Of a stretch of DNA of 64,000 nt, positions 8,490-32,159 are shown piece by piece. Below the pieces are notes generated by a model that was not told the origin of the DNA, ran no database searches, and saw nothing but the letters and a program-made list of their open reading frames with translations. The DNA comes from Flammula alnicola (Eukaryota; Basidiomycota; Agaricomycetes; Agaricales; Strophariaceae), in contig JADNRV010000058.1 of assembly GCA_015499995.1 (NCBI GenBank), positions 238,316 through 302,315 of the forward strand, written 5' to 3'. A program made the translations under genes and the position numbers. Position 1 is the first letter of the stretch. Each line of letters begins with the position of its first letter.

Positions 8490-8582
8490 CAGTATGATCG
8501 TGAATGGATCGATGCCAAATATGCCCAGGTACGTGATTATTGGCTTCAATGTAAGGGACCCCACTCACATAATGTAGCTTAA
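8490..8582 (+). CDS. LINE B ORF1, C-terminal end
   Basis: The first LINE B bases encode about 30 residues ending DYWLQCKGPHSHNVA followed by TAA at 8580-8582. No domain can be assigned to so short a piece. By position it is the end of the ORF1 (gag-like) protein, whose N-terminal part is seen in another copy at 60.7-61.8 kb. The stop codon overlaps the ORF2 start in the string TAATG (8580-8584). Confidence 0.6.
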   Translation, partial: QYDREWIDAKYAQVRDYWLQCKGPHSHNVA

Positions 8583-9305: not shown

Positions 9306-9684
9306 TGTTAAAACTGCCTACACATGTCTCCAAGTTATCTTATCTTATCTTATCTTATCTCTTATCTTATCTCTTATCTGCACTTCCTCCTTTTCACTTG
9401 TTGTGCATTTGTAGATTAGATTCTTATCATGTTCTAGATCATCTCTAGATAATCTCCAGATCATTTCTAGATCCTTTCTATTTTGTATATAAAGTCTTTT
9501 GACATTTGCCAGAAGTCTTTAGTTACTCACTCTGGACTTCAGGCAAGTAGTTAGTATTTTGCCCAATACAATTAGTTACTCACTCTGGACTTCAGCTCAC
9601 TGTAGCTCCTGTGTCCCTCGCTTCGAGTTGCTCATATTAGGCACACAGCTGTGTCACATGTTCCCACACTTGCCACCTTTAACA
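9306..9684 (+). mobile_element. Solo LTR of a Ty1/copia element (379 bp)
   Basis: Begins TGTTAAA and ends TTTAACA, perfect inverted termini. Flanked by ATACT on both sides (9301-9305 and 9685-9689), a 5-bp target duplication. It contains a TATCT-repeat tract, a TATATAAAG box near 9488 and a repeated ACTCACTCTGGACTTCAG. It has the same 379-bp length and termini as the LTR at 52,814-53,192, which belongs to a copia element, so this is what remains after LTR-LTR recombination. Confidence 0.9.
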
Positions 9685-9689
9685 ATACT

Positions 9690-12488: not shown

Positions 12489-12496
12489 TCATCTAC

Positions 12497-13098
12497 TAGG
12501 GGCTTGTCGCCCATTCAAAAGCGACTCCTCTATCATACGTGTGTGGTACCCATTATTACCTATGGGTATCGCATGTGGTATTTCAGAAGCACCCGTAATA
12601 AGGGCCTCCTTAAGCAACTCTCGCAGGTCCAGCGTAAGGCTGCACTGTGGATCACAGGTGTATTCTGCACCTCACCCTCGGGTGGTGTTGAGGCTCTTGC
12701 GGGCCTCCTCCCCATCCCCATACTTCTCGATAGGTTGAATTCTAGGGCTGTTGCCCGGATTTCCTTCCTGTCTGATACTCACCCAGTCCGCTCATTTATG
12801 GCAGGCCCTCTACTTAAGAGAGCCATCCCTCACAGGATGGTGATCGAGCATATGCCCGACAACCATCGCCCTAAGGTGACTGGTGGTCTTATGGGGAATG
12901 CTCTGTTCCACCCCTCTGGTCTTGAGACTCTAGAGCCTTTTGCTTTGGAGGCTCGGCCTGGATATCGTCTCATGGATCGGCATGCAAGCCAGTTCAAGTT
13001 TCTTAACTACCCAAGATGCTCTGGGCTGCAGACCCCAAGGCGGCTTGGAAAATCATACTGGATAAGCTTGTCAAGAAGTGCGACAATGAACCAGGTAC
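12497..13098 (+). pseudogene. LINE B ORF2: thumb/connection region
   Basis: Resumes LINE B after E5: KRLLYHTCVVPIITYGYRMW, then VQRKAALWITG and GVEALAGLLPIPILLDRL, as in the other copies. Open from about 12,504 to 13,010. Frame is then lost near 13,020, and the TA-flanked element interrupts at the start of RNase H. Confidence 0.85.
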
Positions 13099-13100
13099 TA

Positions 13101-13686
13101 TGGTGCGGTTGGACTTTACACCTCTACTTTTGTAGAGGCGCCAAATCGGCTGGCTGAAAAAAAATTATATACATACACAAAAAATAGTTAATTTAATGTA
13201 GATAAGTATGCACCACAGAACAAAATTTTACCGGATATAAGGAGCGCAAGCTTTACAACGAAATCTTCAACTATGGGTCGATGAAATGGATGTTCAGAAG
13301 GGGCATCCCATGCATGCAAAGGTCACCATTGTAAATGCCATCCTGTGATTGACCCACAGAGCAGGTCTTGGAGCAAAGGAAGCTCAGCTGCAGGCTGGCT
13401 GCAGGATAATAAGTTCAGTTCCCGTCAATACACCTCCCACAGAGTAAATCTAATCTAATCATTCACGTGATTTATTACCTGATGTGGACATGCGCATGGA
13501 CCTGCACCAAATTCGTGATTACAAATTTATCAACTTCGTCAGTTTTGAATATTTTCCTTATCCCTCTGGTAGATTTCTTCTTCTCACCAAATGGAGTGTT
13601 TTTACTAGAGGGATAAGAAATCCGTGAAATTTTGGGCGACGTGATTGACTTATTCAAAAGTAGCAGTCTAAAGTCCGACCGCACCA
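13101..13686. mobile_element. TA-flanked inverted-repeat element (586 bp)
   Basis: The target TA is duplicated (13,099-13,100 and 13,687-13,688). Removing the insert restores the RNase H reading PGT-IYAGV of LINE B, confirming the edges. The terminal inverted repeat is about 33 bp, beginning TGGTGCGGTTGGACTTTA, with a mismatch at T/C. A minus-strand open frame of 70 codons (13,475-13,687) is not recognisable. It fits a non-autonomous Tc1/mariner-type element. Confidence 0.8.
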
Positions 13687-13688
13687 TA

Positions 13689-14164
13689 TCTATGCTGGAG
13701 TCAACGGCTCGGTCCCCCTGGGGCCCTGGCAGGCGGCTACTGGTGTTGTACTTAAGCAGCAGGGGGCACAGGTTCTAGCCAGGTGCCACTCTGCCAGGCG
13801 CGCTATCAGCACTGATGCTGAGCTCGCTGCCATCGCGATTGCCATCTCCACCACTGCTGCATTCGGAGATGTCACCGGTATTGTCATTTTCACTGATGTG
13901 ATGCATGCTGCACACCTATCAGTGGACCCTTCCCTGCATTTGAATCAGGCTTCATCCCTGATCATCTGTCGGACACTCGAGCGATGGTTCTGTGATGGCG
14001 GTAACTGTAAAGTCGTCTTCGCAGAGTCTCCCTCCGATATGGAGTGGGGAATTCATCAAGAGGCTCATGACCTCGTTCTGGGGTTTCCTGGGGTACACAC
14101 TACCCCGGATACTCCTCTATCAGTAGCCTGGCTTAGGGCCAAGGCTGACCAAGTCGCTCAGTGA
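13689..14164 (+). pseudogene. LINE B ORF2: RNase H domain
   Basis: RNase H fold with its acidic residues in place: YAGVNGS (Asp replaced by Asn in the first motif), STDAELAAI (Glu), VIFTDVMHAAHLS (Asp) and ESPSDMEW. The Asn at the first position would abolish metal binding. It ends at KADQVAQ where the next insertion begins, then resumes near 15,944. Confidence 0.8.
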
Positions 14165-15943
14165 AGAGACCGCGAGCGGCTAGCTGTGAACGGACTACTA
14201 TTCTTCTTACCTGAGCTATTTTTAGCACTTAGTAAAGCTTATAATGTAGTCTAAATGTTACAAGTCCGGACATTACAATGATGAGACTACTAAGGACTAG
14301 AGGAAACTATGCAAGATAACGAGGAATGTGTGGTTAATAAAGACATTATCACTAGTAACTATTGAGATAACAGTCAATACATCTAACGAAGTGTATGGAA
14401 ATAGGCGCCTTTCAGTAATATCTTAACCATCTGGCCTATACAGCGAGGGCGCGGATCTCTAGATTAAAGAACGGACATCTAGGCACACTACAGGACAGGT
14501 CGTGTGATATTGCCGAGGGCATCGAGGACAGTGGAGCAGCTGGGGCAAAGCAGATGCCCATAGACACGCCTGTAGCAACGCCGATCAAAGCTCGGATCAG
14601 AGGGATACCTAATTGGGAACACATACCATATCGGGTAATAACTGGGTACAGGAAGATTTCTGGGGTGCATAACTCGACACAGCGAGATCCCAGATGCATG
14701 CGGAGGGTACCAGAGTATCGGGTACAGAGGACAAAGGGTTACAACCCTAATCACGAGTATTATCGTGGACAGAACGTGTGTGGATTGCGCGAAGAGTCTC
14801 TGATGAGACATAGGCGCTTCGATGCTCCGGTCAGTCAATAACCAATGACAGGACAAGGTACCAATGAAAACAGAAGGTCACAAGCCTGTATACCACGCGG
14901 TCGAGGAGGATTAAGTCTTAGGCGCTTAAGTTAGCCGAGCCGACGACGATCTAAACTCCTGATCCATCCAAAAAGGCATAATTAGTGGATGAGCATGGAA
15001 ACTGTACTCCACAAGGCTGCCGCTCACGCACAAATGCCCATGAAATCTCTATATTCTCGTCATTGCATCTATGTAATAACATATCGTCTCAGTAGTATAT
15101 AAGCAGCCTTGTAACACTGTAGAATACAAGCAATTTACCACCCACGAGATACAAGCACCTAAGAGTTATATCTTAAGTGTTTCGCCTCTAAGTACCAAGT
15201 AGCTTCAAAGCGAGAGTCCCATAATATAAAAAGAAACCAAGTAACAATATAACGAACTGTTAAAGATGAGAACACGTGTCTAAGTGATTCGCCAAGACAA
15301 GTAAGAGAGTTATAAGCCAAGGAACCTGTCTAAGTGACTTGTCCAAAACTTACCCTTTGTCAAAGGACATCTGGGGACCTGGACTGTAGTGCCGGTAGAC
15401 AAAGCATCTATGCGCCTCTGGCCATTGTTAAGGGACTGTAGTGTTGGCGGATAAGACATCTGCGTGCCTCTTTCCACAAGTATAGTTTTTGAGACAAGTA
15501 AAGACAAGTTAAAGGGCATAGAGCCATCTTCTCAATTGGAGAACAAGACAAAGCGAGATCAGTTAGCAGTTTGTGCATAGAGCACTAGTTTCCGAGTACC
15601 AGACCAGAATTTACACAAGTCTATTGGACTTAAAACGACCCATTGACTATAAGTGCGCCTAAGGCCTTGCCTGAGCCGTTACATAGTTAAACACCTTCTT
15701 TTATTGCACACCTACTATCAGGTATTGATATTCTAAAACTATTATCCTCTCCTTGGATGAACTAAGTCAACTAAACATTGATTTGGGTGTTTGAGTGTAG
15801 TAAAGTAGTTATCAAAAGTGAAGCAAGTCAGAATTGATAGTATCTCTTTAGTAGGCATTAACAAAGTCTATTAAAAGCAACTACTTGACTATTCAGTAGT
15901 TCACACACACCCCGCACTAAGCATCTTTATCGGGCTCACTGAA
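14165..15943. mobile_element. LTR-like insertion without genes
   Basis: LINE B is interrupted here by 1.78 kb with no meaningful open frame. A TG...CA segment can be drawn: TGTGAAC at 14,185 and GTTCACA ending 15,905, with similar adjacent bases, which looks like a solo LTR. I could not find a convincing target duplication. Internal direct repeats occur near 15,375 and 15,430 (GGACTGTAGTG). A TATATAAGCAGCC box lies near 15,095. Family unknown. Confidence 0.45.
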
Positions 15944-16574
15944 AGACCTCGGTCGACGAGCAGCCCCATTTACTTGGTTCCAATTTTCTGGAACTTGAGG
16001 ATCTAAAGGGTAATCCTCTCCGTCTGACCCCCATTCGCGGTGGGCCGTGGCTTGAATCAGGCGGCTGCAACTCCCAGTTGTTTGCCTGCATGTGCCATAC
16101 TATTACGAATCATGCACCGATCAGCTCGTATTACGAGCGGTTCAAAATCGATGACCTGTTGGCTCTCGGGTGTATGTGTGGGGCTTATCCTCAGACGTGC
16201 ACGCACTTATTCAGGTGCCCCAAGTTCCTGATGCTGCCTCACAGGGCACCGCACTTGGTGTGGGGTCTTGTGAAATTTCTGGAAGATAATGCGAATGCAT
16301 TTGCTTTCAACCGGCCTCAAGCCAGAGTCAGATGAGGGACTCTGGATGGAGGGCGATCCTGGGTTTGAGCAGGGCCATGGTCAAAGCATCCTGCTGCCCG
16401 CAGCGAGTTTCCATGTTGGACTGTTCTGGACCTGCAAGGGCGAGGGGTACGTTCGTGGCGTACTTCCCTTGGTGGCCTTTAGGCATCTTGGGGCATGATA
16501 TCCCGTGGAGGACCCGACCTGGTTGACGGCGGTTGGGGCTTCGGCCCTGGCTTAGCTATGACCACGTAGATTTT
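15944..16574 (+). pseudogene. LINE B ORF2: C-terminal zinc-binding region and 3' UTR start
   Basis: Continues LINE B: LLGSNFLELEDLKGNPL, then the cysteine/histidine segment CMCGAYPQTCTHLFRC (CxC...H...C) that closes ORF2 in all copies, then stop at 16,333-16,335. The 3' UTR runs to 16,574, where the gypsy element enters at ACCGG. Confidence 0.8.
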
Positions 16575-16579
16575 ACCGG

Positions 16580-18022
16580 TGATGGGGCGCGGCGCGGTCC
16601 ACCCGTGGAATTTTGCGATTTCCCAATCAATCAACCTATTACACTAGGGAAACAAGGGTAGGCAGCATACCTCGTGTTGGCCGACTAAGTGGGTTACACG
16701 CGGGAAACCACATAACCAAGTACAACGGAAGTAACTATCTACGGTCCGGCGGGCCTGGCTAGTAAGCTCAGAAGTACGCGTAGAACTAAGGTTGGTGCCA
16801 AAGAAGCATGACCTCCGTGTGTCCCTGCAAATCAAACAAGAGGCTTCGACTGGAGAAACCCGCGCAGAATGAGAATCCCGAAGTCTTGAGGCACGACTAG
16901 TCCAATATGGAGACGGCGTTAGACGCGTCGATCGCGGGCCAAAGAACACGTGACCAGGCGGTCCACATTGTCCCATACACCTATCTGTCCATTATACGTG
17001 TAGAACGGCCAAGTAGTTCGGTCCCGAACAGACCGAGCGTTCAAAGACCAGCTCATAAGTAAAGCACGCGGGAAACGCCGCCATAGAGGCGGCGGCTCTC
17101 ACTTAACCGACGACCGTGCCGCACCGGGAGAAGAGAAACCCACGCTAAACGTGCCGTGCATCCCAATCGGGCAATAATGTGTCTAAATACGGACCCAACT
17201 GTATTGATCCCAAAAGAGGGTGTTCCGCGACATAGTGGTTCATTCTTGAAACCAAACATACGCCAGAAAATGGGGACTCACCAGTAACCGTTACCGAATG
17301 AACCCGTAATCACGACACCATGAACCAGTAGAAATAGTGCTATTAGACGCGTAGAATCATATGCAACATGTAGAGGCTTGGCACTCAGTAGGTATAAAAT
17401 ACGCTTGTAATGCACGTAGTAGAGTAGGCAATCCACCCCACAGTTGACACTTTAAAACCAGTGAAAACACTTAAGGGAACGATTTAACCTCGTCGCACCA
17501 GACTTAATTTAATAAAGACCAACATTTGACGCTTCAAAACAGCCTTGCGATCATTGCAAGCTTGAGAAGTAGTTAACCAGAGTTTGACGCGTGTTTCTGT
17601 AAAGTGTAGCGTGCGCCCGTCGTGACCACGTGAAAGTTGTAGCGCGATCCCGTGTGGTAGCGTGAAAGTTGTAGTGCATACTCGTCGCGGTCACTGCATG
17701 AAAGTTACAGGTTGTTAAAGTCAAGTTAAAGTCAACAGTTCGTATCAGTCGTCAAGTTAAAGGAAGTCCGAGTCGGCATTGTTTTGAAGTTAGAAAGTCA
17801 CCACACCAGTTCTACGGAACTAAAACCCGCCCCATACCAAAACCCGCGTAGACTTGTTTACAAGTCAAAGCACTTCTCCTTTTTCATACTTTACCCCCGA
17901 GACTCGCACACAAGACTACGTCTAGTCAAGTTGTTGGTTTTGTGGTTTGGTTGTGTTGAGTGTAGAGTTCTTTCTGCACCACTAGCTAGATCATTTCCAA
18001 CGTAGACGAAACCTAGCACTTT
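16580..18022 (+). repeat. Gypsy 5' LTR
   Basis: Starts TGATGGGGCG. The end is set at CACTTT because the 3' LTR diverges there. A GGTATAAAATACG box near 17,391 is a plausible promoter TATA. Direct repeats of GTGAAAGTTGTAG lie near 17,630-17,710. The end does not show the usual CA. Confidence 0.88.
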
Positions 18023-18025
18023 AAC

Positions 18026-18041
18026 TGGAGCCCACTGCGAG
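18026..18041 (+). promoter_or_regulatory. Primer binding site
   Basis: TGGAGCCCACTGCGAG starts 3 nt after the LTR. A PBS begins with TGG because it pairs with the CCA end of a tRNA. I did not identify which tRNA. Confidence 0.6.
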
Positions 18042-18395
18042 AGGGGTGAAAGGACAAGTCATTTTCGAGTTTCAAAAACAAAAACACGCGCAGTTTAGTG
18101 TTCGCACTAGACGCGTAAAATTACAAAACCATAAAAAGTCACAATTCCGGGACCATCTGCTCCACCGAGTAGGTCAACCAATAGACAGACTAGGCCATCG
18201 TCGAGTCAACCGAATTCTGAAAGATCAAGAACTACCGCATGAGCAACTACGGTTCCCGCGTCTTCCTCTGTGCCCGAAACAAGACCAGACTTACGCAGAA
18301 CTCGTTAAGCGCAGGACTCTTCCAGGATTAGAACCATACGCCAGAGAATTTACGCGTAGAAGTATCCCCTCTACCGAAATCCCTCCATTCCCCAA

Positions 18396-19527
18396 ATGTC
18401 TACCCAACCTCTGCTACTGTGCAAGCACCAGCGGTCGCCACGATGTCAGCAGCGGCATCCAAAATGCCTATGCCTTCATCAAGGGACGCACCCAAGTTTG
18501 ACGCGGAAAAACCGGCAGAGTTGAATCGATTCATTAAGCGAATGGAAGATTTATACGCGAAGCATAATGTTACAGACGATGATGAAAGAATTAGAATGCT
18601 GGGGAAATACGCGGATGCGTGCACGGAAAGAGAGTGGGAAACGCTGGAGAATTAAAAAGCAAAGATTGGAAGAGGTTCAAGAAAGAAGTTATTGAAGAAT
18701 ATGAAGAAGCCATGGATGAGGACAGAGGCTCGTTGAAAAGACTGCAAACTGTGTGCAAACAGCATCGCGGGATTAGCATGTCGGACTTGTCTGATCTCCA
18801 AGCGCTAAAACGTGCGTTCCGCGCAGAAGCCTTGAGACTCCAGGAAGAACCGGTACTGTTGTCAACCGCAAGCTGTAGACATGTTCCTGTCATGCTTAAC
18901 CCCCGAGTTCAGACAATTAATACAAAATCAACTGGACTTATTAGACAGAATCGGCACTAGCGCGGCTACTGCTGCTGTCCGACGACCAGAAGACAAGTAC
19001 AAATTGAATGAGACCATTGACGCAGCGATTGACATGGCTAAGGGTTCGCGAGTCACATACAAAAATGTGGACGGTGGAGGCGGCTATGAAAGGATCAGCT
19101 CTACCTCTATTAAAATCGAGGAAGTAAATCAAACGGTAGCCGCGCTCAAAGACCAGTTCAATATACGCGAAAAACAACTAGAGGCGCGCAAGCCAAAATG
19201 TCTAATCAGTTAGGCGAATTGGCACGTCTAATGCAACAACAGTCCACTATGCAGCGTCAAGTCAGCCAACAGCAGTTTATGCCTCCTATGGGTCCACCGT
19301 TACCACAGCTGTATAGACCACAGCAGCCGATGTACGCGGGAAACAATGCGCCTCGAAGCAGTGGATGTTTCTACTGCGGCGAAGACGGTCATATGAAAAA
19401 TGAATGTCCGCATCGTGCACATCACCTAGACGCTGGCTGGATCACTGTAGATTCGCTAGGGCACGTCAGAATGATCGATGGGCTCCCGTTCCATATGAAG
19501 GCGGAGCAACGACAAAAGAACGCGTAG
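18396..19527 (+). pseudogene. Gypsy gag (capsid and CCHC nucleocapsid), frameshifted
   Basis: Reads as a fungal gypsy Gag: FDAEKPAELNRFIKRMEDLY, then KDWKRFKKEVIEEYEEAM and MFLSCLTPEFRQLIQ capsid-like segments, RRPEDKYKLNETIDAAID, and a zinc knuckle CFYCGEDGHMKNEC (CX2CX4HX4C) near 19,370. The frame changes near 18,651 (a base missing in an A run), 18,870 and 19,195, so no single open frame covers it. The start may be ATG 18,396 or 18,443. Gag would form the cytoplasmic particle. Confidence 0.8.
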
Positions 19528-20142
19528 AACACGCGTGTCAGAAAAAGACGACAGCGGCTCTACAATCCGCAGCAAATAGAAACAGTTTCTATACTGGAGT
19601 AAATGCGCCGGGTATTATACAGTTAGCACAGATCACTCAGCCGCAACCGCCCCAAACGCAAGATAAAGTAGAGGAATTATTGGACCTCCTTGACATAGAG
19701 GACGTACATCAATACCTTATTTCTCGCAGGACAAGGGGTGTTGAGTCTGAGGATCTGGAGGATTCGGATTTCTGAACCGTTCAATGAAGGGAATAGCTGG
19801 TGCTGGGAGAATGACTAAGTTCCCTTCATCGAAAGCCCCGGAGGACCTATATAATTTTAGTCAGACAAGAAACATGTGGAAAAACAAGAAAACAGTTGAA
19901 GTTGTAATACCACCAAGACCTGCGGCGAAACACATGGTTAGAATTGCTGAACCTGAGGTCCAGGAATCCGCGGACACCCAACCGCCCCCAGAGTTGCCAT
20001 TCCTCGAAGTCCCTCCACTCACCGAAGTTGCGAGAACAGACAAAGAGAGACCGGCGCCTGAGAAGGAAGGACCGCGTACCGAACTCAGGCCCCAGTACAG
20101 AAAGGCGCGTTAAACCGAGAGGTTGCCGAAGCCATACTAAAC
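19528..20142 (+). pseudogene. Gypsy gag-protease linker
   Basis: Low-complexity proline- and glutamate-rich coding segments in changing frames: VEELLDLLDIEDVHQYLISR near 19,670 and PPELPFLEVPPLTE near 19,990. No domain. It joins Gag to protease in the ancestral polyprotein; frame shifts near 19,525, 19,775 and 20,110. Confidence 0.5.
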
Positions 20143-20991
20143 ATGCCTATTGGCGCAACAATCGGTCAAGTGCTAGGGTCATCACTGGCAGTCATGAAAG
20201 AAATGGCGCGTCAAGTTACGCGTGTGCGCGTTCCTACTACGCCCACGAACAACCACTTCGCGGCCACGGTTGAAGATGTACCCGACTCAGAAGAATCAGA
20301 AAGCGATGAAGGAATAGTGAATAGCGCGCCCGCTAATAGCAACGTACTTATCGCAGAAGTACCTGAAGATAGCATAATGTTAGAAGATCTACCGTACGCG
20401 GGCTATATGGTCCTAACAGAAGACTGTGAGGATGGCCCAAAGGGTGCCATTATGGTGCATGATCCCATAGTGCAGTACCTGAATGATTTACCGGAAGGAG
20501 AGAAACCGAAGACTATCTATGGCGCGAGAGACTCGCACGCCCTTAGAGCTATCTATCCAACAGTTAACAATGTTGACGAGGAAGAAGCACTATTGGACAG
20601 CGGGTCACAAATTGTCTCGATGTCTAAAGATATAGCGGTAACACTGGGAATCAGCTGGAATCCCGGAATAACGATTAACATGCAAAGCGCCCAAGGCCAT
20701 ATAGAATCAACCTTAGGTTTGGCGCGTAATATACCATTCAAGTGCGGCGACATGACGCTCTTGTTACAAGTCCATATCATAAATGGCCCGGCATATAAAA
20801 TCCTATTAGGGCGTCCGTTTGACGTGTTAACCGCAAGTAACATTCAGAACGCGATGGACGGCGATCAAACAATCACACTGACTGACCCTCAGTCTGGCCG
20901 AAAAGTAGTGTTACCTACTTATGAACGCGGGCGGCCACCCAAGTACCTAAGGAAAGGGACTGGGCAGGCTTTTCAGATCTCGATGAGTTGA
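20143..20991 (+). CDS. Gypsy aspartic protease region
   Basis: Open for 282 codons. The retropepsin active site reads ALLDSGSQIVSM near 20,590, with the flap and ILLGRPFDVL near 20,810 typical of gypsy proteases. It would cut the polyprotein. The stop overlaps the next frame in TGATG (20,989-20,993). The reading continues in the other frame upstream of the junction (GFSDLDELMN), so a single-base change near 20,950 has probably separated protease from RT. Confidence 0.8.
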   Translation: MPIGATIGQVLGSSLAVMKEMARQVTRVRVPTTPTNNHFAATVEDVPDSEESESDEGIVNSAPANSNVLIAEVPEDSIMLEDLPYAGYMVLTEDCEDGPKGAIMVHDPIVQYLNDLPEGEKPKTIYGARDSHALRAIYPTVNNVDEEEALLDSGSQIVSMSKDIAVTLGISWNPGITINMQSAQGHIESTLGLARNIPFKCGDMTLLLQVHIINGPAYKILLGRPFDVLTASNIQNAMDGDQTITLTDPQSGRKVVLPTYERGRPPKYLRKGTGQAFQISMS

Positions 20992-22511
20992 TGAACAGTC
21001 AAGGAGAGACGGCCGTGGTATTCGACTATGATGAGAATACAAAAGAGGTGAAGATAGTAGGATACACTACATCGCAGAATGGAACATTTACCCAAGCCGG
21101 GTTAATGAACGCGTTTCTCGAACAAGCGGCGGAACACGCGGACATTGAGGATAGCGAAAAAGAGAAAATAAAGAAATTTATGGGTCAACGATACGGCGGG
21201 AAGCAGTTTTACACGCAGGAAATACTGGACGGTGCGCGCGTAAAAACCCGCGCAAAACCCAAATCAAAGGCGCAGTCTCCTCCCAGGACTAAAGCTCAAA
21301 TCATTCAGATGAAGAGTCAGTTCGCGGGAAAGAAGTATAAACCTGTGGCAAAGAAAGTAAAGCCAGTTTTCCAGGACTTGCCTGAGCGCTTCAGAATCAA
21401 GCGTGATATCAAAGGTGATCCTTTAGCAGAAATGCCGACTCTGACTCCCAATCCACCGGACTTCGTACCTACAGGGCGATATACTGAGGAAAGAAAACAG
21501 CAATTTGATGAGGTACACTCAGAAGAATTCTTGTGGGATGAGGAAAAGAAATTAATGCACCACCTTATGATGCTACAAAACGAAGCGTTCGCCTGGGATG
21601 AAACCGAGAAAGGGCGCTTCAAAGAAGAATACTTTCCACCGGTAGAAATCCCAACAATAGAGCATAAGCCTTGGGTGTTGAAAAACATACCTATCCCGCC
21701 AGGAATATATAAGGAATTGTGTGATATGATCATAGATAAAAGACGCTCCAATGTATATGAGCCTTCCAACTCGCCCTATCGTTCGCGCTGGTTCGCTGTA
21801 CTAAAGAAGAATGGGAAACTGAGGATCGTGCATAGTCTGGAACCACTCAACGCGGTGACCATAGCGCACTCAGGAGTACCGCCCGCGACGGACGAATTGG
21901 CGTCGCATTTTGCGGGGCGAGCGTGCGGTGGTATGTTCGACCTATTTGTTGGATATGACGAAAGATTACTCGCGGAAAGTTCGAGGGACTTAACGACGTT
22001 CCAAACGCCCTTTGGCGCGATGAGACTAGTAACGCTACCTATGGGTTGGACAAACTCGGTCCCTATCTTTCACGACGATGTAACGCATATCTTACAACCA
22101 GAAATACCAGACTATACTATCCCTTACATTGATGATGTCCCGGTCCGCGGTCCAGCTTCGCGGTACCAAAATAAAGATGGTGAATACGAGACCATCGCAG
22201 AAAATAAGGGGATACGGCGGTTTGTATGGGAACATATGAATAATGTTAACCGCATCCTCCAGAGAATGAAATATTGTGGGGGAACGTTCTCAGGACATAA
22301 AACCGTAATCTGCGCTAGTGAAATACTGGTAGTAGGACACTTGTGTACCTTTGAAGGGCGGAAACCCACTACAGAAAGAATCAAAGTCATTACGAACTGG
22401 GGACCTTGCGAAGACAAGAGCGGAATACGCGCGTTTATTGGCACTGTGGGCGTATTGCGCATCTTCATACCAAACTTCAGTAGAAGAGCCAAGCATCTCA
22501 GTAAATATTAA
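20988..22511 (+). CDS. Gypsy reverse transcriptase region
   Basis: 507 codons. N-terminal linker, then RT: NSPYRSRWFAVLKKNGKLRIV, GGMFDLFVGYDERLL, FQTPFGAMRLVTLPMGWTN and the catalytic YIDD at 22,124-22,135, then FIGTVGVLRIFIPNFS of the connection. The palm motifs are intact. The frame stops at 22,511 where the tether should continue into RNase H. Confidence 0.9.
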   Translation: MMNSQGETAVVFDYDENTKEVKIVGYTTSQNGTFTQAGLMNAFLEQAAEHADIEDSEKEKIKKFMGQRYGGKQFYTQEILDGARVKTRAKPKSKAQSPPRTKAQIIQMKSQFAGKKYKPVAKKVKPVFQDLPERFRIKRDIKGDPLAEMPTLTPNPPDFVPTGRYTEERKQQFDEVHSEEFLWDEEKKLMHHLMMLQNEAFAWDETEKGRFKEEYFPPVEIPTIEHKPWVLKNIPIPPGIYKELCDMIIDKRRSNVYEPSNSPYRSRWFAVLKKNGKLRIVHSLEPLNAVTIAHSGVPPATDELASHFAGRACGGMFDLFVGYDERLLAESSRDLTTFQTPFGAMRLVTLPMGWTNSVPIFHDDVTHILQPEIPDYTIPYIDDVPVRGPASRYQNKDGEYETIAENKGIRRFVWEHMNNVNRILQRMKYCGGTFSGHKTVICASEILVVGHLCTFEGRKPTTERIKVITNWGPCEDKSGIRAFIGTVGVLRIFIPNFSRRAKHLSKY

Positions 22512-23092
22512 AAGACGACGCGCCGTTTGAATGGGGTCCTGACCAGGAAGAGAGTATGCGAATGCTCAAAGATGGACTGTTAGTAGTAAAGCTCTGCGAC
22601 CTATTGATTATGATGGACAAGGCGCGGTAGTGTTAGCTGTCGATACATCCTACAAAGCGGTCGGGTATTACATCTTTCAAGAAGACGCGGAAACCCAAAG
22701 AACAAATTCTACGCGCGTTTCGGGTCCATACCCCTTAACGAGAGAGAAGCAGCTTCTCACAGCCCAAGCGTGAATTGTTTGGAATGATGCGGGCGTTATA
22801 CGCGTGTAAAACCTGGCTCATAGGCGTGCGAAAACTCATCGTAGAGACAGACGCATCCTATATCATTGGAATGTTGGAAAATCCTGACATGATGCCTAAT
22901 GCAACTATTAATAGATGGATAGATAATATCAAGCTATTCCATTTCACGCTTAGACATAAAGCAGGAGCGACATTCGGCCCTGATGGATTATCGCGCAGAC
23001 AGCGCTACCCAGGGGATGATGAATACTCTAATATTGATGAAGACGAAAGGACCCAGGAGGGCCGCCTAAGTTGTTATTGCGGACCCAACTGA
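22512..23092 (+). pseudogene. Gypsy RNase H region, frameshifted
   Basis: APFEWGPDQEESM and GQGAVVLAVDTSYKAVGYYI (first RNase H strand with Asp) near 22,630 lie in different frames from LFGMMRALYACKTWLIG (Glu motif expected just upstream) and LIVETDASYIIGML near 22,840. PDGLSRR closes the domain. At least two frame changes. Confidence 0.75.
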
Positions 23093-23165
23093 GCCTCAGC
23101 CAATTCCGATTGAAGAATTCCGCGACAAAATAGATACCAGAGGGGGATACTGTATAGAGATAGTA

Positions 23166-24950
23166 ATGGCAGACGCGAGTCAACCTCGTCCAATCCCAAT
23201 CAGCGAGTTCTATGATAAAATCGATGACAAGGGAGGCTATTACGAAGGTTTCGCGACCTCGATAGTTGACTTTGACGCGGAAAGCCTTAAGGCGCAGAAA
23301 GACGCGTGGAACGACCGCACAGAATTAAGTGCGTTCTGGCAAAGCAAGACCGACCATAAACCCGAGCAAGTCTCAGTCCTGGTATCGAAGATATTAAATA
23401 ATGAACTACTTCCTGATCTGGAGGAGAGGGATAGCCCTGAGAAATGCACTCCCTACCTGGAGGAACACCGTGGGAAAATCGGCGCACATTATGATTCCTT
23501 GTTACCCATTGTAAAGAAATGGTTACAAGATATAAGTGTACAACCCTATCATTGCAAAACAGGAAAGGAGTATAAAAAGTTCAGGCGTTGGGCTAGTAAC
23601 TTCTTCTTGGATAAAGAAGGGCATCTATATCGACGCGGGGAAAATTCCATGCACAAGTTAGTTGTGGAGAAAGAGCACCGCATGTATATGTTGAAATCGG
23701 CGCATGACAGTCTGGGACATCGCGGAGTGTACTCAACAAAAGAATTGATCGGGCAGAGGTTTTGGTGGCCTGAGATGGCTAAGGACGTTGTATGGTATAT
23801 TAAAACCTGCAATATGTGCCAAGAACGCCAAAAGGCGCTAATAGAAATCCCGCCGATTGAAACGCACACTCCGTCAGTATTCCAGGTAGTCCACGCAGAT
23901 ACTATGCACATGACGCCTAAGTCAAATGGGTGTAAATATATTGTTCACGGTCGTTGTCATTTAACTTCCTGGCCTGAGGCGAGAGCGCTCATAACTGAGG
24001 ATGCCGCGTCAATTGGGAAATGGATGTTTGAAGACATAATTTGCCGTTGGGGATGTTTAGTGGAAATTGTGACAGATAATGGTGGACCCTTCAAAGCCGC
24101 TGTACGCTGGTTAGCGGACAAGTATGGTATAAGGGGTATACGCATATCACCATACAATTCCCACGCGAATGGGTCCATCGAGCAGCCGCATTGGGACATC
24201 AGACAAATGTTATACAAAGCAACGGGCGGCAATGTCGCTAAGTGGTTCTGGTTCCTGCATCATGTACTGTGGGCAGACCGCATCTCGGTTAGGAAAAGGT
24301 TGGGTTGCTCGCCGTTCTTCATGGTAACCGCAGCACATCCTATTGTACCGTTAGATGTGATTGAAGCCACCTGGTTAGTTAAACTACCAGGCAGAGTATT
24401 ATCAGATGCGGAGTTAATTGGTTTCTGCGCCAAAGCGTTAGCCAAGCACTCGGTCCACATTGACAGAATGAGGGAACGCATGAGCGAAGAAAAAGCCGCG
24501 CGTTTACTGAAATACGAGAACGATCGCCAAGCGGTGATCAAGGACTTCGATTTCAAACCAGGTGATTTAATTTTGGTCCGAAATAGCTCGATTGAATCCA
24601 ATCTCGACAAGAAAATGAAGCCACGCTATGTGGGACCAGTAGTTGTCATAAGGTGAACTACGGGCGGTTCATATGTAGTGGCGGAAATGAATGGCGCTTT
24701 ATGGCACCACAAAGTAGGCGCATTCCACGTACTCCCTTATTACGCACGTGAAAAGATAGAGCTGCCGGAGAAAGTATTAGACTGGCTCACGATATCTGCA
24801 AGAGGCCTGCAGAAAGTGCTGGACTTAGATGAACCGGGAGAAGAGGACTATGATGGTACCAAAGACTTGACATTTGCCAAGGTGCCTATTAGAGACTTAG
24901 ACGATGCAAGCGAGCCAGACTTGGAATCGGACAGCGATGAAGATGCATAG
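23166..24950 (+). CDS. Gypsy integrase with one in-frame stop
   Basis: The HHCC zinc domain (H...H...CNMCQ near 23,700-23,820) is followed by the DDE core: HADTMHM (D), IVTDNGGPF (D, near 24,075) and SIEQPHWD (E, near 24,180). A C-terminal domain ending in an acidic stretch runs to 24,950. TGA at 24,654-24,656 interrupts in frame where CGA (Arg) would read through to TTGGSYVVAEMNG. A preceding short segment near 23,095-23,165 resembles the integrase start in another frame. Role: insertion of the cDNA. Confidence 0.88.
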
Positions 24951-25142
24951 GTAGCATTGAGGGAAAAACTCTACGCGAACAAGTACAAATTGACGATGTA
25001 CTACTGGAAGTGAACATTTCCGTGCGTTGGAGTGGAAAAACCTCTTGCTACAGTATCAGGTCGGAAGTCTGACAAAGAGCGGTTGACGCGTCTAATGAGG
25101 AACGGGGCAACCTATTGAAAGAATGAGAGCATCAGACAGGGA

Positions 25143-26527
25143 TTAGAAACACGCGCGAAACGGGCGCGCACCAGGGTCATGCTCCTCGCTCCAGCGGGTA
25201 AGCTCGCCGATAACTATCTCGCGCATATGCAAATTGTACCGCAGGTGATAGTTGTGTTCGTCAAGTTGACCAAGTAGAATCTCGCGCGTTTTAAGGATGC
25301 CTCGACGAGTAGAAACAGTTAACTGTTCCTCGTCTTGTAGGGCTTTAACGCGGTCAAGGGCATCTGCAACTTGAGAATCACTAACGATGGCTGAAGCTGC
25401 GCGTATGACCTTAACGAAGAGCGTTTCATGCGGAAAATTAAGCGTACCAGGCAAAGGACTGGCGGTGACGGTCATAACGGACGCAGTAGACTGCTGGCAC
25501 TTGCTGGAGGTAGTCGCTTTGCTGCTGCCGCGAAGAACATATTTGGAGGCCTTGCGATATTCTGAGGAGTTAGTATTGACTCCAGAGATGAACGCTAAAG
25601 GAAGAAAGCGCACCTCGGGGCGACGCTCGGACTAAGGATGAACGACACGTGTAATCAGCGGTCTGAGAAACAGGCGTATAATCAAAAATGCACGCACAGT
25701 GGTTTCCTTGACCATGTTATGGGGCCGAGTAGGGGGCGTCTTACCCTTCGGAGCTTCAGCGGACGGTGCGGGACTGGCATCCTTCGAGACAGAGGTGTTG
25801 TCGACATGCATCTAATAAGTTTGGTGTTAGTCAGGATAAACAAAATAGAGTGGACCATTTACTGGCTCTCCCTGAACTGGGGGTGTCTCGCAGTCACCAG
25901 TGATAACAACAGGTTCCATGTCTTCATCAGTATCAGTGAGGGCGGCCTTGGATTTGACGCGGCGACGGCGAGCCTGGCAGTAAAGTTAAACAAGAGATGA
26001 CCGAAAAGTGTAGTATCTTACCTCCTTGGCGGTGCGCTTGGCATTCTCCCTGAGCTGTGCTTCGGAGATATGGTCGCACTCCTTACCCTTCAACGCTTCA
26101 GCACTCTTCGGGTTCCTATGAGTATAAATTCGATAGGTTATGTTGAGCAGGGCGATGAGTGGTTGAGGTGGCTGGTATCCGAGGCCTGCAAGGTCTTTGA
26201 GTGACAGGTGTTCTTTCCGCATGTGAAGTAACAAATCGCAGGTGGCCTGGTTGGCGAGCAGCACGTCTGTGGTTGCGGCCCAAGGAAGCTACGAAAGACG
26301 CGTGAAACGGACGCATCAGTTTTAAAAAGATTCAGTACCATTGATGGAGTAAAATAACTACGCACAATGGGCTTGACAACCGCCATGAGCTCATCAGCCA
26401 AGTATCAGACGGTGACACTAGGCAAACGACCATAAAGCGCGCGAAGCGCGATATAGTTGTCCAACGAGCTGACAGCTGCGTCGAAGCCAGGTAAACCGTC
26501 TTTGGCCGTAGAGTCCTGAAGCGACAT
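25143..26527 (-). CDS. Antisense gene 2 of the gypsy element: five-exon unknown protein
   Basis: Exons read 26527-26339, 26288-26022, 25973-25863, 25811-25698 and 25631-25143. All introns are GT-AG, 48-66 nt, and every exon is a multiple of three, giving 389 codons. Exon 1 has a TGA at 26,407-26,405 (codon 41); the same frame continues as YLADELMAVVKPIVRSY, so it is a nonsense change or an unrecognised small intron. The product is helical, with a basic stretch ARRRRVKSK at about residue 153, an acidic patch after it, and a leucine-rich C-terminal part. I do not recognise a family. It lies opposite to gag-pol, directly after integrase. Confidence 0.65.
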
Positions 26528-26771
26528 AACACGGGAGGATGCGAGGTTAGAAACGCTGAAGTCCCTGACTTTCGCTGGTCTGTCAACTTGGGTTTTTATA
26601 CTTCCCGCGTCTTTCTGATGCTCGAGCCAGGGAGCGGGGCGTGTCGGGTCAAGAGCCTGCGAAAGGAAAATTTTACGAGCAAAACCGCCTAGTTACAAGC
26701 GGGCGTCCTGGTCCAATGAAGGTGCCTTGCACATGAAAAGTCAGCTGGCATGGTACCTCCGATGGCACACA

Positions 26772-26822
26772 CTCGAAGTTTGACTGAGGACAGTCAAGTT
26801 GTAAAGTGTGGGGGAGGGAGGC
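26772..26822 (+). repeat. Internal copy of the PPT region
   Basis: TTGACTGAGGACAGTCAA, then AGTGTGGGGGAGGGAGG. The same arrangement, TTGACTGGGGACAGTCAA then AGTGTGGGGGAGA, precedes the 3' LTR at about 30,360-30,397. The first part forms a 7-bp hairpin in both places. Confidence 0.75.
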
Positions 26823-27619
26823 ACTAAGGAGCGTTCAAAAAGACACCAGATTCCGGGAACGTTAAATCTACGCGGCAAACACAGACGAAAAAGTCTTATA
26901 AATCTGAGACAACAGGAGCTAGAAAGACGCGCAAAATGCATCAACTAGCTATGAGTCAATGTAGCCTACCAACGGCTAAGTCTTGAGCCGAAAAATCAAT
27001 ACAAAAACGGCTTCAATCTAGTAGAAACCTGAAGTGAATAGGCCAAGTCGAAGACGGACAGTCTATAATTAGATAACTGAGCGGCAATCAGTGTTCGCGA
27101 GCCTCGGTCAAAACTACTACCGAAAATTGAATGAGTAACCTAAATATAGAACACATTTGATTGACGCGGGTTTCGGCCAAGTACAAGCAAGACGCTATGC
27201 TGGGGCAGACTACACTAAGGATGACTTAGTCAAAATAAAACCAACATGGTCAGGGAGTAGAAGTCATGGGTGGCTCATCATAGAATGGTGTAAAACAAGA
27301 AACGGACGACGGACGAGGAGTAAAATAACAATCGAGTGTCGTCGGATTGACTTTATCCACCACCAAGCTTGAGTCCAGACTTACGTACCCAGAAACCCGC
27401 GTGGAAATGGCGAAGTATACAGGCGCATATCGTTCCAGGCGAAAATCAGTCAAAGATGGTGTCTCGGAAACTTAGGGATTTAGCAACACCAGATCACACA
27501 GGAGAGGCCAAAGTTAATACCAAGTCCACTCAAGTGAACTTGGTAGGCTATATTAAACAAAGGGGGCTCTACCAAAGAGCGAACCCCCTCACACAAAAGG
27601 GCTATAGAACTATATACTG

Positions 27620-27690
27620 TGGGTAGCTTAGCCCCTACCCTGGGCAGTATAAAATATGTATAGACATGGGCTCTAATAGATAGAGCCCAT
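27620..27690. terminator. Paired hairpins 3' of antisense gene 1
   Basis: ATGGGCTCTA (27,666-27,675) and TAGAGCCCAT (27,681-27,690) form a perfect 10-bp stem with a 5-nt loop. Just before it, GGGTAG and CTACCC form a second, shorter stem. They sit about 160 bp beyond the stop of the minus-strand gene. A role in 3' processing or RNA structure is a guess. Confidence 0.35.
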
Positions 27691-27847
27691 TCAAAGAAAA
27701 AGACGAGGCGCCCGACCAAGAACGACGCGCGGGAATCAGGAGCACGGTAGGGTAGCTAGAAACGAGGTGGTTTAGCAAAAGACGGGTGGAAAGAGGAGAA
27801 CGACTTGCCAAAAAGAGAGGTACTAGAGTACCTCCTGACGAGTGGTC

Positions 27848-29925
27848 CTATGCCTCTTCCCCCGACCGACTGTTGACCGACTCGCCCTCGTCGTCGCTGT
27901 CGCCATCGTTGGGTTGACGCGGGGAATCCTCGCCGCTCTCATCATCACTCCCTTCATCGCTCGGCGCCTCCTCGGCCTCCAGGTCCAACAAGTCGTCAAT
28001 CGCCGCGGAATCTGCGATGGAAGTCTCCTCCTGTTCCTGCGACTCGCGGTACAAACGATACTGAAGGACAGTATGTTCCCAGCTAGTAGTTGGGACGCGT
28101 TCGAACACATTGGGGTCTAGAAACAAGAGTAGCTCATCGATAAGCGGGAGGCTGTGGTGACCAAGCTCGGCGGCGTCGACGTTCGACGCGCGTTCCAGGA
28201 CGAAGTCGACGCACTGCTGACTAGTAAAGACTGATCGCGTCAGGGCGGCCGGGAAGTCCTCGTGGTACAAATCAATAACGCGCTGAGTGAAGCGGCCTGC
28301 GAGACGGTCGGCCTGTCCGTATGAAGACTCTGCTTGACGCGCGGAAATCAGACCTTGACTGCAGTGGAATTGAATGTCCCATAAGTCCTCCTGGAAGCCT
28401 ATCAAGTAGAACAGTTCAGTCGCGAATACTGGAGATAGGCAGGTCAGGACTTACTGGTCAACGAATTTTGACCCAGCGAATACGCGTGTTCCCTGTAGTA
28501 GGCGCGCTCCTCGGGTGACCAGACGAACGAGCATCGACCGTGTTTGTGATGCGTACAAGGAGGGCATCCCTTGTTGAAACCAAGGAACTTGCAGTGTTGC
28601 TCGGTATCGCCCATAACGCAAGCAAAGCAGGGAGCCTTGACCTGTATGAAGCAAAGAGTCAGGAAAAACGCGGAAATTTTGGTTAGAAAGGCCAACGAAA
28701 CGTACCTGGGCCTTGAAGCCACGACGAAACACCTTGAGTTGGGCAGCGTCAATAAGAGGAGGGGGTTCGTTAGCACGAAGGCCTGCAGGAGTCTGTTGCC
28801 ACAGTGAACGGGCATCTTCGAGGAACGCCTCCTGGGATAAGATCTTGGTATGCGGCCAGAAAGGGGCATACTTGGCTTTCTTGGATGGTCCGGCGGAGGG
28901 TAGTTGGGCATCCTCATCGTCATCAGTACTGGAGATAGTAGCCTTACTCTTGGCTAATTGACGCGCAGATTGGCGCGCGCTAGATGAGTGTTTGCGTTTT
29001 CCCGTGGTTTTTGATGACTCGGCCCGTGGTGGGGAAGGATTGCTCTGGGCGAAATCACCGTCAGAAAGGGGGATTAGGGACTGGAAACCTAAGTAAAAAG
29101 GAGTGAGAATTGTAGGGCAGAGAAGAACCCGCGCATGGTGAACTAAGACCACACACCTGACTGGGCAAACTCGAGCGCCGCTTGACGATCCGTCTCTGAT
29201 TCACGCGTCAAATCGGCCTGTCGTTGCAGCTCGGCCTGTCTGGCCACCTCTGCTCGCTCGATGGCTTGTTGCGCCCAGCGTTCGCGCTTCGCGCTTGCTT
29301 TTCGCTCCCAGCGTTCGCGCTTCTCGCTTGCTTTTCGCGCCGCAATCCGTTTTGCGTGCTCTTCATGTTGTTTCACCATAAATTCTTCGGCTAGTTTCTG
29401 CCGCTGGGGTGTGAAAGGGAGGGAGCCAGCCTGGGCAGGAGGAAATTCATAGTCTAGGGGCAGGGGTTGCTAGAATAAATAATGAGCGTTTAGCATGGCA
29501 TAACAGGGGCAGGAAACGAAAAACCTACCCGCCCTGGGTTATCGATAACCCAGTCCTCACACCTGAGTGCTACAAGTTGGTCGGGGGACAGCAATTTGGC
29601 AAGGTTCGCGTGGAGCTGGCGGAAGGAGTGAATATCATCAGGGATTAGATATTCACTACCAACGATCTCCGCGAAGCATAGGAAGCGACTCTGCAATACA
29701 AAATAAAGAAAGTCAGGGCCACGTAAATACACGAGTTCTACAAAAACTATGCACCATGAAATACACTTGGCTCTGCAAAGCACCGTAGGCAGATTCCACG
29801 TCGACCTCATCCTGAATACAGTCCTTGAGGGCCCGAAAGGCAGGGCGAATGAATTGGTATATATCAAAGACGCCAATAGCGGCGTCAAGGGTGGCCAAGG
29901 GAGATGGTTCTGGAGGGGTGGACAT
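27848..29925 (-). CDS. Antisense gene 1 of the gypsy element: nuclear-type protein with hexacysteine cluster
   Basis: Six exons: 29925-29767, 29690-29529, 29469-29157, 29088-28706, 28641-28455, 28398-27848. Introns are 76, 59, 68, 64 and 56 nt, all GT-AG; phases match at every joint and the total is 1,755 nt, 584 residues without a stop. Order of features: helical N-terminus; Arg/Glu/Ala-rich coiled coil at about 138-211; basic KTTGKRKH...RQLAKSK at about 238-260; cysteine cluster at about 344-376 with spacing C-X2-C-X8-C-X8-C-X2-C-X7-C, close to the fungal Zn2Cys6 pattern; helical C-terminus; Asp/Glu/Ser tail from about 530. This suggests a DNA-binding regulator, but function is inferred. 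It lies between antisense gene 2 and the 3' LTR, with about 470 bp of upstream sequence. Confidence 0.75.
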
Positions 29926-30385
29926 GGCAGAAAAAGCTGAGATTGTAAAGTGGAAAGCAAGCGAGCGGTTGGAGTGTGTAACGGAGACTGTTAGACTCAG
30001 CGTCAGAACCGACGCATTATTTATTGAGTCCTATATGGTCTGTGCGCCAACGGCGAACCACGCAGAGATCTGGAGAAACAATGGGCGGCGCGTTTCATGA
30101 GTAGAGCTTAAAAGCTTGAATGGTTGGGCGCTGCACGTACCTCGACTTCTAGACGGGCGCTAAAGTTTGAGACAAAACATACAATGGGCGCGTGTTGTGA
30201 TGGATGATGTCATAATCAAATTCGATCTTGTGGCGTGTATCGGCTTGATCGGCACAATGAGATAGTGGTGTGCGAAGGCTTAGGCATCACGGGAATATCC
30301 GTGCGGCATCTTGGCCAGTACCAAGGGCTTAGGGAGAAACATACTCGGATCACGCGGCATTGACTGGGGACAGTCAATATTATAA

Positions 30386-30397
30386 GTGTGGGGGAGA
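30386..30397 (+). promoter_or_regulatory. Polypurine tract
   Basis: GTGTGGGGGAGA, purine-rich and ending exactly where the 3' LTR begins (TGATGGGG at 30,398). It would prime plus-strand cDNA synthesis. Confidence 0.8.
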
Positions 30398-31840
30398 TGA
30401 TGGGGCGTGGCGCGGTCCACCCGTGGAATTTTGCGATTTCCCAATCAATCAACCTATTACACTAGGGAAACAAGGGTAGGCAGCATACCTCGTGTTGGCC
30501 GACTAAGTGGGTTACACGTGGGAAACCACATAACCAAGTACAACGGAAGTAACTATCTACGGTCCGGCGGGCCTGGCTAGTAAGCTCAGAAGTACGCGTA
30601 GAACTAAGGTTGGTGCCAAAGAAGCATGACCTCCGTGTGTCCCTGCAAATCAAACAAGAGGCTTCGACTGGAGAAACCCGCGCAGAATGAGAATCCCGAA
30701 GTCTTGAGGCACGACTAGTCCAATATGGAGACAGCGTTAGACGCGTCGATCGCGGGCCAAAGAACACGTGACCAGGCGGTCCACATTGTCCCATACACCT
30801 ATCTGTCCGTTATACGTGTAGAACGGCCGAGTAGTTCGGTCCCGAACAGACCGAGCGTTCAAAGACCAGCTCATAAGTAAAGCACGCGGGAAACGCCGCC
30901 ATAGAGGCAGCGGCTCTCACTTAACCGACGACCGTGCCGCACCGGGAGAAGAGAAACCCACGCTAAACGTGCCGTGCATCCCAATCGGGCAATAATGTGT
31001 CTAAATACGGACCCAACTGTATTGATCCCAAAAGAGGGTGTTCCGCGACATAGTGGTTCATTCTTGAAACCAAACATACGCCAGAAAATGGGGACTCACC
31101 AGTAACCGTTACCGAATGAACCCGTAATCACGACACCATGAACCAGTAGAAATAGTGCTATTAGACGCGTAGAATCATATGCAACATGTAGAGGCTTGGC
31201 ACTCAGTAGGTATAAAATACGCTTGTAATGCACGTAGTAGAGTAGGCAATCCACCCCACAGTTGACACTTTAAAACCAGTGAAAACACTTAAGGGAACGA
31301 TTTAACCTCGTCGCACCAGACTTAATTTAATAAAGACCAACATTTGACGCTTCAAAACAGCCTTGCGATCATTGCAAGCTTGAGAAGTAGTTAACCAGAG
31401 TTTGACGCGTGTTTCTGTAAAGTGTAGCGTGCGCCCGTCGTGACCACGTGAAAGTTGTAGCGCGATCCCGTTGTGGTAGCGTGAAAGTTGTAGTGCATAC
31501 TCGTCTCGGTCACTGCATGAAAGTTACAGGTTGTTAAAGTCAAGTTAAAGTCAACAGTTCGTATCAGTCGTCAAGTTAAAGGAAGTCCGAGTCGGCATTG
31601 TTTTGAAGTTAGAAAGTCACCACACCAGTTCTACGGAACTAAAACCCGCCCCATACCAAAACCCGCGTAGACTTGTTTACAAGTCAAAGCACTTCTCCTT
31701 TTTCATACTTTACCCCCAGACTCGCACACAAGACTACGTCTAGTCAAGTTGTTGGTTTTGTGGTTTGGTTGTGTTGAGTGTAGAGTTCTTTCTGCACCAC
31801 TAGCTAGATCATTTCCAACGTAGACGAAACCTAGCACTTT
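30398..31840 (+). repeat. Gypsy 3' LTR
   Basis: 1,443 bp, the same length as the 5' LTR. Differences I could see: mainly G/A and C/T exchanges (for example within the first 100 bp), one extra T and one missing G. Confidence 0.92.
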
Positions 31841-32159
31841 ACCGGTGAATCGGGGAGGGCCTGGCAGGCTCTTCTTGGATCTGGGTGACCCCCCTGTCCC
31901 CCCAATACTCCCTATCTGCCATCTGTGCAGTAGCGTTAACAACGCTGCAACAACAGACCATGTGGGCTGCGAGGTCCATTATATGGGTTTCAGGCTGCTG
32001 CACAGTCTCACCTGCATCACGCTCACGCACGCCACATGCTCCCCTGCGAGCACCCATCTTTCTTTTGTAGTTGTAGTGCAGCATGTTTTTGTATTAGTTT
32101 GACACCCGGACTGTGTGCGTGCACCGGTTATATAAATTGTTGATTTAAAAAAAAAAAAA
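31841..32159 (+). other. LINE B 3' UTR and poly(A) tail
   Basis: Resumes GGTGAATCGGGGAGGGCC exactly where the gypsy target was cut, contains CTGGGTGACCCCCCTGTCC seen in the other copies, and ends GTTGATTT then A at 32,146-32,159. Confidence 0.85.

Follow-up and report, generated by a model that had tools for sequence, protein, structure and literature searches.

Can a fungal retrotransposon carry spliced genes on the strand opposite its own gag-pol, and, if so, what would they do for the element? The question is raised by a 64,000-nucleotide stretch of Flammula alnicola DNA, here called the window (G000:C534:238316-302315 in working labels), which contains a Ty3-type long terminal repeat (LTR) retrotransposon of 15.3 kb at positions 16580-31841. 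An earlier note on this DNA had described two intron-bearing genes on the strand opposite gag-pol, in the interval from integrase to the 3' LTR. Comparison with other copies of the element bears this description out: both genes show purifying selection and splice-site conservation among copies. Gene A (gene 1 of the note) has six exons and encodes 588 amino acids; gene B (gene 2) also has six exons and encodes 363. To judge from these comparisons, the two almost certainly exist as real antisense protein-coding genes. They are a clear example from a fungus of a retrotransposon that has kept intron-rich antisense genes, and the genome alone is enough to show the selection on them.

Two antisense genes and their constraint among copies

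Copies of the element were sought in the 74.4-Mb genome. One search returned 55 matching stretches, and 18 further copies, named here by C-number, were followed besides the window (19 in total). Both genes are present in the window and in 15 of the 18 others, some of them as remnants; C117, C9 and C214 have gene A only. At least five gene A classes can be distinguished. The window groups with C246, C69 and C776, with C117 and C9 as a side branch (0.70 substitutions per synonymous site, dS); the remaining classes are C71/C6/C734/C214, C545/C702/C163/C223, C819/C745 and C47/C12. One copy, C601, is badly decayed. The orientation of gene A is opposite to that of the element in each of the 19 copies. 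When the genome was searched with a single protein of each gene, gene A had 108 matches and gene B 89 (E <= 0.01). All of them lie within the window and the followed copies bar a single gene B fragment (C545:272988-273212), and no host-gene copy of either gene was found in these searches.

Six of the 19 copies served as representatives for gene A and seven for gene B; among these, plus further pairs, selection was measured as the ratio of non-synonymous to synonymous substitution (dN/dS, omega). For gene A, 11 of the 15 pairs between class representatives have omega values of 0.068-0.127, and the other four are saturated. Wrong frames on the same strand give 1.2-2.8, and two frames of the sense strand over gene A give about 1 or more; the third sense frame has values of 0.18-0.29, yet contains 24-30 stops in each pair. 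Between the introns of gene A, 53-68% of aligned sites are mismatched in 14 pairs and 27% in the remaining one, the closest. Gene B omega is 0.029-0.184 in 20 of 21 pairs, with 0.36 in one close pair separated by 15 changes. For comparison, integrase values lie between 0 and 0.17 in 14 of 15 pairs and reach 1.08 in one close pair with five changes. Among the further pairs, close ones give high, noisy values, and the gene A outlier, C545/C702 at 0.75, is explained by the upstream part of C702, which is not homologous. On this pattern of substitution both genes are under purifying selection across copies. The coding constraint that the note had asked to be checked by dN/dS is present: the frames occur in the copies, and omega is low for both genes.

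Splice sites are conserved in parallel. At the projected base, 16 of the 19 copies (C702, C601 and C214 excluded) have GT at 76 of 80 gene A donors and AG at 75 of 80 acceptors. The non-GT donors comprise those of C819 and C745, which have GT within two bases, one deleted in C6 and an AT in C117; all five off-position acceptors have AG a few bases further on. Gene B, counted in 16 copies (C117 and C9 lack the gene and were excluded), has GT at 79 of 80 donors and AG at all 80 acceptors.

The gene A model of the note, six GT-AG exons totalling 1,755 nt without a stop and encoding 584 residues, was rebuilt exactly at 29925-27848 on the minus strand. Its exon joints stand except for the first donor: intron 1 begins at 29754 instead of 29766. 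The intervening 12 nt are coding in public models P0001-P0007, the donor of the other copies lies at 29754, and the correction yields 588 residues. Each of seven public gene A models was mapped on the copy it belongs to, with P0008 and P0009 left out. P0001-P0005 share five introns of phases 0, 0, 1, 0 and 1; P0002 has one extra intron, P0006 maps only to residue 460 and is without intron 4, and P0007 has eight introns.

Gene B had been described as five exons totalling 1,170 nt with one TGA. A five-exon assembly with that TGA was recovered at 26527-25143 on the minus strand, at 1,143 nt; the corrected gene has six exons. The former 'exon 5' contains a 51-nt intron (25447-25397), which varies in length among copies and without whose removal several copies are not in frame. 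It was missed in the single copy because its length there is a multiple of three and it holds no stop. TATA-like boxes precede both start codons. The last eight of the nine bases of the gene A box, AATAAATAA, are identical in 7 of 7 copies shown, and TATAAAA of the gene B box, TATAAAAA, is kept in 6 of 6; given this conservation, each antisense gene appears to have its own promoter.

The possibility that picked GT-AG pairs had merely joined chance open frames was assessed with 60 dinucleotide shuffles per stretch, allowing up to five GT-AG introns. The longest spliced open reading frame (ORF) of the gene A stretch is 1,839 nt, against a shuffle mean of 1,091 and a maximum of 1,554; gene A exceeds chance from the single sequence alone. 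The gene B stretch gives 1,143 nt against a mean of 816 and a maximum of 1,116. Single-sequence evidence for gene B is thin, since it barely beats the shuffles, and this is what chance would have in its favour. Selection, splice-site conservation and the public models refute it among the copies, leaving chance with a practically negligible probability.

Table 1. Features of the element and its antisense genes (positions in the window).
Feature	Position	Strand	Basis or remark
5' LTR	16580..18023	+	alignment with 3' LTR; TG two bases upstream may be true start
Protease ORF	20143..20991	+	Pfam Asp_protease_2, E 6.5e-6
Reverse transcriptase ORF	20988..22511	+	Pfam RVT_1, E 4.9e-4, under curated cut-off (weak)
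Integrase ORF	23166..24656	+	Pfam Integrase_H2C2, E 3.6e-18; downstream of reverse transcriptase
Gene B exon 6 and stop	25143..25396	-	
Gene B exon 5	25448..25631	-	
Gene B exon 4	25698..25811	-	
Gene B exon 3	25863..25973	-	
Gene B exon 2	26022..26288	-	
Gene B exon 1	26366..26527	-	holds TGA at codon 41
Gene B TATA box TATAAAAA	26593..26600	-	66 nt before gene B ATG
Internal copy of polypurine-tract region	26780..26816	+	84% over 37 bp against 30360-30396
Swappable gene A cassette	27171..30397 (approximate limits)		identity steps
Four-hairpin array	27515..27710	-	shortly after the end of gene A, in the gap between genes A and B
Gene A exon 6 and stop	27848..28398	-	acidic tail
Gene A exon 5	28455..28641	-	Cys/His cluster
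Gene A exon 4	28706..29088	-	basic stretch like a nuclear localization signal (by eye)
Gene A exon 3	29157..29469	-	charged, coiled-coil-like repeats (by eye)
Gene A exon 2	29529..29690	-	
Gene A exon 1	29755..29925	-	ATG at 29925
Gene A TATA-like box AATAAATAA	30017..30025	-	92 nt before gene A ATG
3' polypurine-tract region adjoining LTR	30360..30396	+	
3' LTR	30398..31841	+	alignment with 5' LTR; TG two bases upstream may be true start

The gene A cassette, a CGCG dyad and a hairpin array

Gene A behaves differently from the backbone that carries it. Over the first kilobase of integrase sequence compared, copies are 94-99% identical to the window, whereas ten aligned copies of other gene A classes fall to about 48-85% between 27171 and 30397. 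Identity recovers at or just before the LTR, the last part of which is 97-99% identical to the window in 12 of 16 copies; C69 and C601 are without that part, and the sequences of C6 and C819 did not extend to it. Same-class copies C246, C69 and C776 remain at 93-99% through gene A and then drop to 61-79% just downstream of it; C117 and C9 are at 75-86% in gene A. Between C71 and C545, dS is 0.032 for integrase and 0.129 for gene B, while the proportion of synonymous differences in gene A, 0.773, is saturated. Between C745 and C12, dS is 0.012 for integrase (126 codons), 0.116 for gene B and 2.46 for gene A. Copies of one class resemble each other in gene A about as closely as elsewhere in the element, C702 being the exception. 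Synonymous-saturated alleles on near-identical backbones imply that gene A has been exchanged between elements.

Balancing selection is an attractive explanation for the persistence of old gene A alleles; the plain alternative is that they descend from old separate lineages homogenised elsewhere later. In two chimeric copies, C117 and C9, the gene A cassette and 3' LTR come after unrelated sequence with an antisense gag-like ORF (recognised by eye), and their junction lies near the internal copy of the polypurine-tract region. With saturated gene A beside near-identical integrase, conflict between elements, or between element and silencing, becomes testable in a mushroom.

A short dyad, RWT-N3-CGCG-N3-AWY, is scattered through the whole element on both strands, in coding and non-coding parts. 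On the two strands together there are 101 ACGCG sites in the element (15.3 kb) and 46 in the remaining 48.6 kb of the window, densities of 6.6/kb and 0.95/kb; at eight other retroelement loci the density is 0.84/kb. RWT half-sites stand three bases from CGCG in 53 of 254 flanks, as against 11-24 at ten other spacings (mean about 15). With 16 expected, the binomial P is 2e-14, a value to be taken only as a guide because spacing and consensus were chosen after looking. No such spacing peak was seen in the window outside the element or at the eight other retroelement loci. Over the whole genome, RWTNNACGCGNNNAWY has 442 forward and 417 reverse occurrences, and the reversed control has 216 and 161. 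The half-site share is highest in the LTR (10 of 28 flanks). Most single cassettes, across classes, have the peak, so the motif shows no sign of tracking gene A specificity; three bases is not the top spacing in C71, C6, C734 and C214. The dyad is a candidate DNA target of A or B.

Just downstream of gene A, folding of 27515-27710 on the two strands exceeds that of 200 shuffles (z -3.7, with 0/200 as good; z -3.6, with 1/200). In six representatives of the block, plus-strand z values are -2.4 to -5.1 and minus-strand values -3.3 to -5.0 (60 shuffles each; 2 of 60 were as good for the C71 plus strand). A MAFFT alignment of the block was rejected, as it misplaced hairpin arms; arms were placed by hand and compared arm by arm, leaving out hairpin 2. 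For hairpins 1, 3 and 4, eight copies together give 187 pair cells: 171 Watson-Crick pairs, 11 minus-only wobbles, 5 plus-only wobbles and no others. These cells are not independent events, because the copies are related. Stems are kept among copies through paired changes or wobbles. The comparison mildly favours a structure that would act in gene A's own transcript. Lowest-energy plus-strand folds are without hairpin 4 in C71 and hairpin 3 in C545, and C734 is without the block. Nor does the block always track gene A class: the window and C246 belong to one class, yet are 79% identical there. An Rfam search over 27400-27900 gave no credible match. Dyad and hairpin array together offer concrete targets for binding and RNA tests.

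Possible roles of the two proteins

Judged by eye, both products have basic stretches like nuclear localization signals, and that of gene A also has a charged coiled-coil-like segment. A Cys/His cluster and an acidic tail complete the gene A product. Six Cys and three His of gene A are invariant among the models aligned, seven of the nine (C348, C351, H359, C360, C369, C372, H374, H375 and C380 of P0001). A Zn2Cys6 transcription factor was considered for gene A and rejected: there is no Zn_clus match in Pfam, and the spacing is C-x2-C-x8-C-x8-C-x2-C-x7-C, whereas that of Zn_clus is C-x2-C-x6-C-x5-16-C-x2-C-x6-8-C. Pfam gave no match to either gene up to E 1 with the first-pass models, nor in a later scan of gene A, and a PDB sequence search with the gene A alignment found none. 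The gene A protein has nine database relatives, all from Flammula alnicola. None was found outside the species with the 584-residue version (8,000 candidates scored) or with residues 300-545 of P0001 (3,286), searches that need exact shared words and could let remote relatives escape. Under the same limit, the gene B protein, queried in a five-exon version including 17 residues now judged intronic, had no relatives at E <= 0.001 (8,000 scored). Paralogy of the two genes was likewise rejected, a comparison of their profiles giving a probability of 1.2% and no detectable relationship.

A and B are probably accessory proteins of the nucleus that control their own element, at the level of transcription, silencing or copy number, and would be comparable in function to HBZ of HTLV or GENE23 of maize Grande. 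A general mechanism can be proposed. (i) Each gene would be transcribed antisense from its own promoter and then spliced to give mRNA. (ii) The packaged genomic RNA would be the complementary strand, in which the introns read CT...AC and would not be removed; hence they would survive retrotransposition. The note's proposal that antisense placement maintains introns through transposition fits the copies inspected, which keep their introns, none being intron-free. (iii) The dyad would serve as a candidate DNA target for A or B. (iv) Gene A passes from one element to another as a cassette whose alleles are old. More speculatively, and on balance doubtfully, the parts may form a two-gene antisense control module, in which a conserved nuclear B and a swappable, old-polymorphic A set element-specific self-recognition or escape from silencing, acting through the CGCG dyad and structured RNA in the gene A 3' region and remaining intron-bearing by antisense encoding.

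Several observations weigh against the main reading, that of nuclear regulators. In the window copy, the sense ORFs of gag-pol are broken up and gene B is interrupted by the TGA at codon 41. Many copies are decayed, as exon-length shifts in gene A and closed gene B frames indicate: at least one gene A exon-length difference is not a multiple of three in 10 of the 18 other copies (all are multiples of three in the other eight), and gene B is frameshifted or stopped in 7 of 15, being open over 363 residues in the other eight once the fifth intron is removed. Gene A is without an in-frame stop in the window, C246, C69, C776, C545, C223, C47 and C12; an apparent stop at codon 178 in seven copies adjoins an alignment gap, and the public models of C734 and C745 are open. 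The three copies excluded from the gene A splice count have just 8 of 15 GT and 10 of 15 AG. Antisense transcription and splicing are steps that we only infer, and with no match in Pfam or PDB it is composition, judged by eye, that suggests DNA binding and a place in the nucleus.

Two more specific roles deserve consideration. Gene A may be a self-recognition or immunity cassette, a possibility of modest weight, in which different alleles would not repress one another, so that rare alleles would be favoured and cassettes swapped, as in phage immunity regions. Saturated (C71/C545) or very high (C745/C12) synonymous divergence of gene A beside low integrase and gene B dS is consistent with this, as are the drop in identity at about 27170 with recovery at or before the LTR, and the existence of five or more deep classes. 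Separate old element lineages would account for such alleles equally well, if template switching had since made their backbones alike, and the 79% identity of window and C246 in the hairpin block does not follow gene A class. Rather unlikely, on an analogy with VANC of the Arabidopsis VANDAL elements, is that A, B or both are anti-silencing proteins that would bind the CGCG dyad and keep the element unmethylated. The density of ACGCG in the element, a core that contains CpGs, and the action of VANC21 through dense element-specific motifs, as described in part of PMC5735166, argue for it; VANC21 sites, however, are mainly in non-coding DNA, whereas the dyads lie also in coding parts, and the motif gives no sign of following gene A specificity.

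Quite improbable is a nested transposon insertion, or a recently captured host gene, that plays no role in the element. The internal polypurine-tract copy upstream of the gene A cassette and the chimeric C117 and C9, with the same cassette after unrelated sequence, could be read in this way. Against it stand the occurrence of both genes in the window and 15 of 18 copies, the lack of a host copy in the genome, purifying selection that resembles that on integrase, and the few comparisons made around the region, in which no terminal repeats were seen.

Known systems and the surrounding element

Antisense genes between pol and the 3' LTR are known from plant Ty3 elements as aORF-3R, in maize Grande (gene23), rice RIRE2 and Silene Retand; GENE23 is located in the nucleus and has a promoter of its own, and Retand TRP28 is predicted to bind DNA (passages of PMC7264820 and PMC11963269). 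Position and orientation are alike. Genes A and B differ in having no Pfam match, five introns each, deep allelic cassettes (gene A) and a fungal host; the word 'intron' is absent from the main text of both papers. TRP28 (Transposase 28, PF04195) has no match in A or B up to E 1, or in the nine gene A proteins up to E 5.

Closer in host, Boty-like LTR elements of the fungus Botrytis cinerea are reported to have an additional gene in antisense, called brtn (Zhao et al. 2011; brief mentions in PMC7264820, PMC8365987 and PMC4227169). As far as that short description goes, Boty differs in its ascomycete host and in having one named gene, not two. Spliced antisense genes are known for HBZ of human T-cell leukaemia virus type 1 (HTLV-1) and the antisense proteins of HTLV-2, -3 and -4, the HBZ transcript starting in the 3' LTR (in part of PMC3185765), and HBZ is a nuclear regulator (in part of PMC11963269). 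The likeness lies in antisense genes of a retroelement that are spliced in HTLV and predicted to be spliced here. HBZ, a bZIP protein, has its start in the LTR, whereas the TATA boxes and start codons of A and B lie in the internal region and Pfam scans found no bZIP domain in either. VANC shares with A and B the combination of an accessory protein family encoded by a transposable element and dense short element-specific motifs; VANDAL is a DNA transposon, however, and VANC binding is experimental, whereas here there is motif enrichment alone. The note had regarded an intron-rich antisense pair in a fungal element as new. This stands in part: no such pair in a basidiomycete element was recognised, nor any paper combining 'Flammula alnicola' and 'transposable element', in literature that largely excludes subscription papers, whereas fungal antisense (brtn) and spliced antisense (HTLV) genes were each already known.

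Assignment of the element to Ty3/gypsy follows from near-identical LTRs around protease, reverse transcriptase and integrase in Ty3 order, with a weak reverse transcriptase match. The LTRs are 99.4% identical (nine differences in 1,445 aligned columns). The 15 bases at the primer-site position after the 5' LTR (18029-18043) have a single exact occurrence in the genome, in this element, and other copies are without them; the exact-match search with them found no matching tRNA gene, exact matches alone being sought. The internal copy of the polypurine-tract region may be a central plus-strand primer, or else the scar left when modules fused.

The triplet that follows the shared LTR end, TTTA, is [ACG]CG in 12 of 14 insertions including that in the window, C117 and C9 being different, which suggests that integration prefers CpG. 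Outside the element, positions 1-16500 and 32000-64000 form a dense nest of other repeats, with inverted pairs of up to 1.3 kb at 89% identity.

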